Assembly: GCF_004343075.1 (NCBI RefSeq)
Contig: NZ_SLXP01000002.1
Coordinates: 1 to 64,000, forward strand
Length of the DNA: 64,000 nt
Direction of reading: 5' to 3'
DNA from: Rhodovulum marinum
GTDB taxonomy: Bacteria; Pseudomonadota; Alphaproteobacteria; Rhodobacterales; Rhodobacteraceae
Shown: piece by piece, positions 96 through 1,580 of the stretch
Layout of the letters: every line of letters starts with the position of its first letter
Numbering within the stretch: the stretch's first letter is position 1
The notes under the pieces: generated by a model
Told to the model about the DNA's origin: nothing
What the model saw: only the letters and a program-made list of their open reading frames with translations
The model's database searches: none
Program-made: the position numbers and the translations under genes

Positions 96-101
96 AAGTA
101 G

Positions 102-305
102 ATGCCGCGCAATGTAGTTGTGCTTCTCGATAATTCTGACGGGCGCTCCATGATTAAGGAAGCCTGCAAGGAAAACGGCATGCATTTCGCCGAATTCGAA
201 GAGCTTGTTCAGGCGGAAGTCGAACAAACAGGAAAGCAGCGCCGCGCCGGTCTTTGGGATTCCTTTGACGATATCCTCGACCGTATTCAGGTAGACGATA
301 AATAA
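102..305 (+). CDS. Small DNA-modification (Dnd) system-associated protein
   Basis: This 67-residue acidic protein (MPRNVVVLLDNSDG...FDDILDRIQVDDK) resembles the small proteins encoded just before dndD in DNA phosphorothioation loci; no biochemical role is known to me. It stops 3 bp before the start of the dndD-like frame at 309, which is typical operon spacing and supports the assignment. Its upstream neighbour has been replaced by an IS3 end only 6 bp before the ATG, and no strong ribosome site is left between them. The gene is full length, but its system is broken, so it is probably a relic or is expressed only from the IS. Confidence 0.6.
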   Translation: MPRNVVVLLDNSDGRSMIKEACKENGMHFAEFEELVQAEVEQTGKQRRAGLWDSFDDILDRIQVDDK

Positions 306-308
306 AGC

Positions 309-1187
309 ATGCATATTTCGCAGATTACGCTCCGGGATTGGAAAGCCTACACGACCGCCAATTTCGATTTTCCTGCGCCCGCAACGGATAAGAACATTAT
401 TCTGATCGGTGCGCCGAACGGTTACGGCAAGACTAGCCTCTTCGAAGCCATTGTTCTTGGCATGTTCGGACGGGACGGCCTTCCGCTCATCGCACGCTCG
501 CCGTTCTCAGGGGCGGACAAGGAACGGCTTGCCACCTCCTACAAGAACTTCCTCGAAAAAGCGCTCCATAGGGGCGCGACCACAGCGGGCCGCACGTCTT
601 GCTCGGTGAAGCTGGTCTTCACTGACGAAAATGATGAGCCGCTGGAAATCCAGCGTATCTGGCATTTCAGCGATTCCGGCGTCTACCGCCCGCAGGATGA
701 AGAGATTCACATCTATGAAGGCTCGACCCGCAAGGCGGTGGGTCCTGGAGCCTTGCAGGGCAATGACCGCACGGATTGGTTCCGCGAGTATATTGCCGAA
801 AACCTTCTTCCCTTCACGCTCGCGCATTTCTTCATGTTCGACGGCGAACAGGTGAGCGTGCTGGCCGAGCGTGAGATACGCATTCTCTGCATGATCGATG
901 AGGCGCACCAGATACTTGGCACTAGGCTTCCATCCTTGTCCCGCCTGATCCGCATGAGCCGCTCGAAGGGTGGCGCGGTGATGCTTGTTTCGCAATCGCC
1001 GGACGATTTCTCCGGCGAAGACGACGAGTTCCTCGACAACATGGGATTGGTCGCAGCATTTGCGACGAACGCTAAGCCAGGGGCGGCAGCGCGCGTCCTC
1101 GGCAAAGGCGCCAATCTTACGAACCTTCAGACAGGCCAGTGCTTCGTGCGGTTCGACAAGACCACCAAGAAGATCAAGGCGTGGTAG
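309..1187 (+). pseudogene. Chimeric remnant: DndD N-terminus fused in frame to DptH C-terminus
   Basis: The open frame codes 292 residues. Residues 1-189 match the start of DndD, the SMC/ABC-like ATPase of DNA phosphorothioation: the MHISQITLRDWKAY opening, Walker A GAPNGYGKTS at 34-43 and FFMFDGEQ at 175-182. From about residue 190 the sequence switches to an unrelated HerA/FtsK-like ATPase end: Walker B CMIDEAHQ at 194-201, an arginine-rich SRLIRMSRSKGG segment, the SQSPDDF sensor and a terminal KIKAW, as in the restriction factor DptH. Full DndD is more than twice as long and full DptH far longer, so everything between was lost by an in-frame deletion with its junction near 866-885. The product has a Walker A from one family and a Walker B from another and is unlikely to be a working ATPase. 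Confidence 0.8.
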
Positions 1188-1490
1188 TGCAACCGCTGAA
1201 CTGTGGCACTGGTCGCAAATGGGAACGCGTTCGATTTCAGTTCCAACTCGGTACTTGTCTCTGAAATCGAAGTGTTCAGCGGATGGTATATTAAATCGTA
1301 TGACTTCAATGGCTTAGCGGAAATTCACCAAATCGGCGCAGTCATCAGGTCCGGAGAATATCGGCCCTGAGAGACCCCTCCCGAGCATTCTGGCGGCTGG
1401 CCCCGTGCTCAGCTCCTCCCGAATAACCTTCGAATATAACGAGAAAATCCGGCCGCAGCCGGATGGGGAGAACGCTTTCGCGGGGGCAAG
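1188..1490. other. Intergenic stretch between the Dnd/Dpt remnant and tRNA-Ser
   Basis: I see no convincing gene in these 303 bases. They hold an 11-bp inverted repeat (listed separately) and a lower-GC segment up to about 1310, after which composition returns to that of the chromosome. The stretch directly follows the 3' end of the minus-strand tRNA-Ser gene, where an island attachment site would be expected; no integrase gene and no obvious copy of the tRNA 3' end are visible. Confidence 0.5.
1230..1271. repeat. 11-bp inverted repeat with 20-base spacer
   Basis: TTCGATTTCAG at 1230-1240 is the exact reverse complement of CTGAAATCGAA at 1261-1271. It begins 43 bases after the stop codon of the chimeric frame, so it could be a transcription terminator without a U-tract, a protein-binding site or a remnant of a mobile-element end. 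Confidence 0.5.
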
Positions 1491-1580
1491 TGGCGGAGAG
1501 ACAGGGATTCGAACCCTGGAGACGGTTTCCCGCCTACACGCGTTCCAGGCGTGCGCCTTCGACCACTCGGCCACCTCTCC
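1491..1580 (-). tRNA. tRNA-Ser (anticodon GGA)
   Basis: The minus strand folds into a long-variable-arm class II tRNA. The acceptor stem pairs GGAGAGG with TCTCTCC, followed by discriminator G and an encoded CCA at 1493-1491. The anticodon GGA is read from 1546-1544, in the loop CTGGAAC, and the T-loop TTCGAAT is intact. Its 3' end faces the Dnd/Dpt remnant, the usual side for genomic-island integration into tRNA genes. Confidence 0.95.

Follow-up and report, generated by a model that had tools for sequence, protein, structure and literature searches.

The dnd genes of Escherichia coli have been described on islands at tRNA genes, and two dnd islands at different tRNA genes of a single E. coli genome have been reported (PMC4373003). 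In a subset of Dnd systems, a HerA/FtsK ATPase of clade 3 is fused to DndE and is encoded beside a DndD-related ABC ATPase, so a DndE-HerA fusion gene is already in print, in a paper that likewise describes the C-terminal domain of DptH/DndH as HerA/FtsK-like (PMC10853773). The locus described here lies at the left end of the window, a stretch of 64,000 nucleotides of Rhodovulum marinum (Rhodobacteraceae) whose base 1 is also base 1 of contig C2. It differs from the tRNA-borne islands of E. coli in that tRNA-Ser genes are involved and both copies of the island in the genome are decayed. At its center is an open frame at positions 309-1187 that joins the beginning of dndD to the end of a dndE-herA gene (Table 1). 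This frame is very probably a pseudogene, the remnant of a recently inactivated phosphorothioation island at a tRNA-Ser gene, in which the two parts stayed in frame by chance.

Table 1. Features at the left end of the window. L029, L031, L033 and L045 are related loci; L029 is from Stappia indica.
Feature	Positions	Strand	Evidence
Insertion-sequence end at contig start	1..95	-	Recurs at the ends of five other contigs
dndC last codon and stop	96..101	+	Aligned with the intact loci L029, L031 and L033; in these, AAGTAGATG closes dndC and opens the next ORF
Complete 67-aa ORF	102..305	+	Counterpart of the small ORF between dndC and dndD; 96% identical to L029 9794-9994
5' part of dndD (codons 1-189 and two bases of codon 190)	309..877	+	98% aa identity to dndD of Stappia indica (L029)
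Deletion junction (hybrid codon 190, ATA; base 877 common to both parents)	876..878	+	dndD of 7 relatives and the DndE-HerA gene in 9 sequences, side by side
3' end of dndE-herA gene (last ~103 codons and stop)	877..1187	+	Counterpart of L029 HerA residues 409-511; 4 differences in 309 bp versus L045
Right island end	1188..1490	.	1323-1516 recurs by tRNA-Ser genes in congeners and relatives
tRNA-Ser (GGA)	1491..1580	-	ARAGORN

The ORF translation of the fused frame, on the plus strand, was 292 aa long, had no internal stop and contained the motifs GAPNGYGKTS, FFMFDGEQ, IDEAHQ, SQSPDDF and KIKAW. Searched alone, residues 1-189 matched the TIGR03185 model of DndD, the ABC-type ATPase of the DNA phosphorothioation complex, at E=7e-24, and correspond to the N-terminal lobe with its Walker A motif. 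The frame scored 85 bits with this model against a cut-off of 245.85 and covered model positions 1-180 of 650, short of a full-length DndD; the dndD part at 309-877 aligned to positions 1-164. The DndD Walker A motif (GAPNGYGKTS) is kept, with an AAA_23 match of 46 bits against a cut-off of 27. About 505 of the 694 codons of dndD are absent, including the coiled coil and the C-terminal ABC ATPase half with its signature and Walker B, and the codons after 190 are those of the dndE-herA end. The best PADLOC model for residues 1-189 alone was PDLC02736, labelled PbeC (E=1.3e-96). This label was set aside; the intact homologue in Stappia indica passes the NCBIfam DndD cut-off (267.4 bits against 245.85 with TIGR03185). 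PbeC is a CxC-type ATPase (PMC10853773), and no CxC was seen when the sequence of the S. indica dndD homologue was inspected by eye.

Residues 190-292 alone gave weak matches of the HerA/FtsK/TraG type, among them mad8 (E=5.2e-8) and TraG-D_C (22.7 bits, cut-off 22). A Pfam scan of the window protein found no match to the DndE domain (PF08870), and the HerA Walker A lies outside the retained part, the parental motif in S. indica (GSGSGKT) being upstream of it. A search for PDB chains similar to the fused protein gave none at E<=0.01.

The two parents were identified by comparison with S. indica, where window positions 96-877 corresponded to L029 9788-10569 at 89% DNA identity and positions 866-1187 corresponded to L029 13296-13617. 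The gene order in L029 is dndC (390 aa counted from 8621), a 67-aa ORF, dndD (694 aa), a 511-aa protein, a 181-aa protein without a family match, and a DGQHR protein (TIGR04172, 496.5 bits, cut-off 450). The gene for the 511-aa protein starts 4 bases before the end of dndD, thus overlapping it. The protein carries a HerA-like ATPase behind a DndE domain (PF08870, 27.0 bits, cut-off 25), and its residues 170-460 match a DndH model at E=3.6e-17. The same parental layout is found in relatives, with the DndE domain at ~27-117 and the HerA-like ATPase at ~165-505, directly after dndD. The Pfam DndE domain was above its cut-off in all seven intact relatives scanned (lowest score 25.1; L029, L031, L033, L036, L040, L041 and L042, 7 of 13 intact loci).

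Since the 511-aa parent carries DndE and then a HerA-like ATPase, the second half of the frame is the end of a DndE-HerA protein of the kind described in Dnd systems, of which just the last ~103 of 511 residues remain here. DptH was ruled out as its source by the length of the parent, its N-terminal DndE domain and its neighbourhood: the matched DptH/DndH models are 1,567-1,715 positions long, whereas this 511-aa parent has DndE at its start. The fragment in the fused frame matched the DndH model at E=0.049. A preliminary description of the locus had assigned residues 1-189 to DndD and residues 190-292 to a HerA-like end of DptH, joined in one open frame. The DndD assignment is upheld by the TIGR03185 match and the identity to the S. 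indica protein; the second half is indeed HerA-like, but its origin in DptH does not stand. That an open frame joins two parents is borne out by two of the checks proposed in that description. Profile searches of the separate halves returned a DndD-type and a weakly HerA/FtsK/TraG-type part, and in the intact loci of relatives, L029 included, dndD and dndE-herA are separate, adjacent genes.

In Methylorubrum extorquens AM1 (NC_012811.1, 1015202-1018818), matches to the start of dndD (60%) and to full-length DndE-HerA (57%) lie within 4 kb; no gene is listed beneath them in the incomplete gene table of this plasmid-collection replicon.

The junction could be placed to the base. The dndD match runs to base 877 and the dndE-herA match in L045 and L052 starts at base 877, an overlap of one base, and codon 190 (ATA) combines parts of dndD ATG and herA CTA. 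Relative to intact relatives, the gap of ~2.74 kb extends from dndD codon 190 to dndE-herA codon 409. The missing span was 2,738 bp in five of seven relatives. L034 gave 2,732 bp; L036 gave 2,731 bp as aligned and 2,732 bp after allowing for one alignment gap, its dndD row in this comparison being one base out of register. No dpt genes were found within the deleted stretch in L029, and the inferred deletion removed none, because none lie between dndD and the dndE-herA end. The preliminary description had put the junction near 866-885, with a residue boundary that was right to one residue, and had the deletion take most of dndD, presumably dndE, and most of the dpt restriction genes; the first two losses are confirmed and the last is not. 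The join would have come from an ordinary illegitimate deletion, and the frame would have been kept by chance, an outcome expected one time in three.

The left side of the operon is also missing. Identical copies of bases 1-95, 93-95 bp long, are found at the ends of contigs C14, C17, C20, C27 and C29 with different flanks; because the DNA that follows differs, this segment is the terminal part of a repeated mobile element, which we take to be an IS3-like insertion sequence. Its reverse strand holds a frame with MPQKKHKPEE. The insertion-sequence end directly abuts the last codon of dndC, and the remainder of dndC is absent. Loss of dndC and of the island's left side would have come from the insertion itself or from a deletion beside it. 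In the same genome, near a further copy of the 1-95 end, a protein at L060 (G000:C17) 914-2026 matches a presumably integrase-like protein of L029 (32% over 420 aa).

No dndC was found in the assembly by protein, DNA or family-model search. As a control, the protein query found dndC in four of four other genomes, all picked as known holders, with a fragment only in G191. The family-model search is weak by itself, since it matched 5 of 14 control genomes and none above the cut-off. No second DndD was found in the assembly, the sole DndD-model match being the fragment in the window. Thus, of the dndC, dndD and dndE genes that define a working phosphorothioation system, the first was not found in the assembly, and dndD and dndE-herA are truncated. 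An assembly gap at the insertion sequence could conceal the left side of the island, together with any dndC.

The ORF that survives between the dndC remnant and dndD gave weak matches to DndC models over their C-terminal ~50 positions (E=1.4e-4 and 1.6e-4). In 13/13 intact loci a small ORF, with matches of 63-67 aa, lies between dndC and dndD; against the last ~50 DndC-model positions it gave E<0.1 in seven of the ten scanned and no match in three, and its frame differs from that of dndC in L035, L039, L043 and L028. This weak match to the end of the DndC model, in a frame other than that of dndC, suggests that DndC in this group may be split into two genes.

Taken as a decayed operon, the locus would derive from a genomic island that had inserted at the 3' end of a tRNA-Ser gene and whose cargo included dndC, the small ORF, dndD and a fused dndE-herA gene. 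Any 292-aa product translated from the frame would carry the DndD Walker A without its own ABC signature or Walker B, followed by a HerA end without the DndE domain or the HerA Walker A. No phosphorothioation activity is expected of it, and in the absence of dndC the DNA should carry no modification. The preliminary description of an in-frame deletion chimera recording an inactivated phosphorothioation locus is sustained, and dndE is indeed lost. Its wording that two unrelated ATPases were joined is too strong. DndD and the HerA parent are both P-loop ATPases, of different classes. The further suggestion that the product could interfere with related systems found no support, and such interference is unlikely because no such system, neither a dndC nor another DndD, was found in the genome. 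The appropriate annotation is a decayed dndC-dndD-dndE/herA operon, and neither "dpt restriction island" nor "functional fusion protein" would be a correct label; a chance in-frame join of this kind can look like a gene to automatic annotation.

The age of the event was assessed from the two halves. The first half differed from L029 at 67 nucleotides in 567, with 2 amino acid changes in 189 codons. The second half differed from L029 at 37 nucleotides in 309 and from L045 at 4 nucleotides in 309 bases, where the sole amino acid change was the hybrid codon. This pattern of substitution indicates that both halves were under strong constraint in the past and, with almost no amino acid change in either, the deletion looks recent. 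The codon comparison pools changes before and after the fusion, and several dS values were saturated or undefined. Nearly all of the divergence can predate the deletion, and the counts therefore fit a recent event but cannot show selection on the fusion.

The tRNA-Ser (GGA) gene to the right of the frame is the likely integration site of the island. An Rfam match at 1494-1536 (+) was taken as chance, since it scored below the gathering score and overlies the tRNA. Sequence 1323-1516 is probably a shared island end. Fifteen of the 20 listed matches of at least 60 bp had a tRNA-Ser gene in the fetched stretch, with anticodon GGA, TGA or GCT, in a list from which seven duplicate loci were left out and which still holds some places twice or more; several congeners had more than one copy. 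This island-end sequence was also seen upstream of dndC at L036 8109-7921 and L037 8112-7919, in the opposite orientation to the operon compared with the window, and the L037 copy adjoins a tRNA-Ser (TGA).

A second dndE-herA remnant was located 460 kb away at C2:461179-461570. It covers codons 379-511 with 92% aa identity to L029, and has three codons missing and further changes; downstream of it, ~330 bp of the island end are 88% identical to the window. It adjoins a tRNA-Ser (TGA) gene (L052 13875-13964, equal to C2:461874-461963). The second island seems to have been reduced to roughly a kilobase, because the DNA upstream of the remnant (L052:11000 to ~12650) is common to four congeners (G299, G300, G302 and G309).

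That the genome contains two related remnants, each at a tRNA-Ser gene, raises the question of whether the join came from recombination between two islands and not from a deletion within one. The second half is nearer to L045 (4 in 309 bp) than to L029 (37 in 309), and the nearest sequence found for the first half is that of L029 (67 in 567), which would suit two sources. However, the homology at the join amounts to one base, and L045 has no comparable first half, its contig ending ~100 bases before its match. We consider recombination improbable, and its product would still be a pseudogene, so it competes with the deletion step and not with the reading of the locus as a remnant.

An assembly or base-calling artefact at the junction is less probable still and would be surprising. 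The window does begin at a contig end in a repeat, and the genome contains a 91% identical copy of the second half at another place, whose match begins precisely at base 877; yet that copy differs in ~9% of bases and has a 3-codon gap, and therefore cannot have supplied the second half. In addition, a single base is shared with the parents at the junction, no match in the genome spans the junction, and neither parent is intact anywhere in the assembly.

We give least credence of all to a new protein that is expressed and maintained, such as one binding partners of either parent and blocking incoming Dnd systems, or a hybrid P-loop protein with an ABC Walker A and HerA/FtsK Walker B and sensor strands that acts as their inhibitor: the frame has a start codon, no stops and the preceding 67-aa ORF as in intact relatives, and the mad8 profile aligns over both halves (residues 28-289, E=3.9e-12), but the fusion was in no other genome searched, a scan for sigma-70-like promoters found none in 1-1600, the upstream part of the operon is replaced by the insertion-sequence end, and no partner system was found in the genome. 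Judged from the general features of these folds, such a product would join an ABC-type Walker A to the Walker B region typical of HerA ATPases. An open frame with almost no amino acid change fits a recent deletion and a maintained fusion alike. The AlphaFold model of the fused protein had a low pLDDT of 49.7, with residues 26-67 and 216-292 under 50, from an input alignment whose remaining 14 sequences span just the first half; for the L029 DndE-HerA protein, modelled by itself, the pLDDT was 36.6.

Matches in other genomes were confined essentially to one half of the fused frame at a time. In a sample of 295 genomes of the family, 14 had a match (own genome included), and those outside the window locus cover essentially one half; among plasmid records, 0 of the 14 matching ones cover 80% of the frame. 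Within the genus (16 genomes, own included) the protein matched in its own genome only, neither half being found in any of the 15 congeners at E<=0.001. The dndD/dndE-herA join of the window was absent from 23 related loci, which were drawn by scanning genome contigs with peptides of the chimera itself and are not a fair sample. Near-full-length dndC, small ORF, dndD and dndE-herA, each in one frame, were found in 13 of these loci (L029-L036, L038, L040-L042 and L049). Four others (L039, L043, L044 and L048) have frame breaks in dndD that may be real or may be sequencing errors; in L048 other genes are broken too and there is no dndC match. Three loci (L037, L045 and L050) break off at a contig end or no more than ~140 bases from it, and three (L046, L047 and L051) are truncated inside a contig, in dndD. 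The locus adds one recent-looking case of island loss, with two remnants at two tRNA-Ser genes of one genome, and related bacteria have copies that are broken differently. In L015 (G191), which is outside the 23 loci, dndC codon 97 is joined out of frame to dndE-herA codon 190 near a tRNA-Ser (TGA). Since this locus and the truncated loci are broken elsewhere, island deletions recur with different breakpoints, and the in-frame join is one outcome among them.
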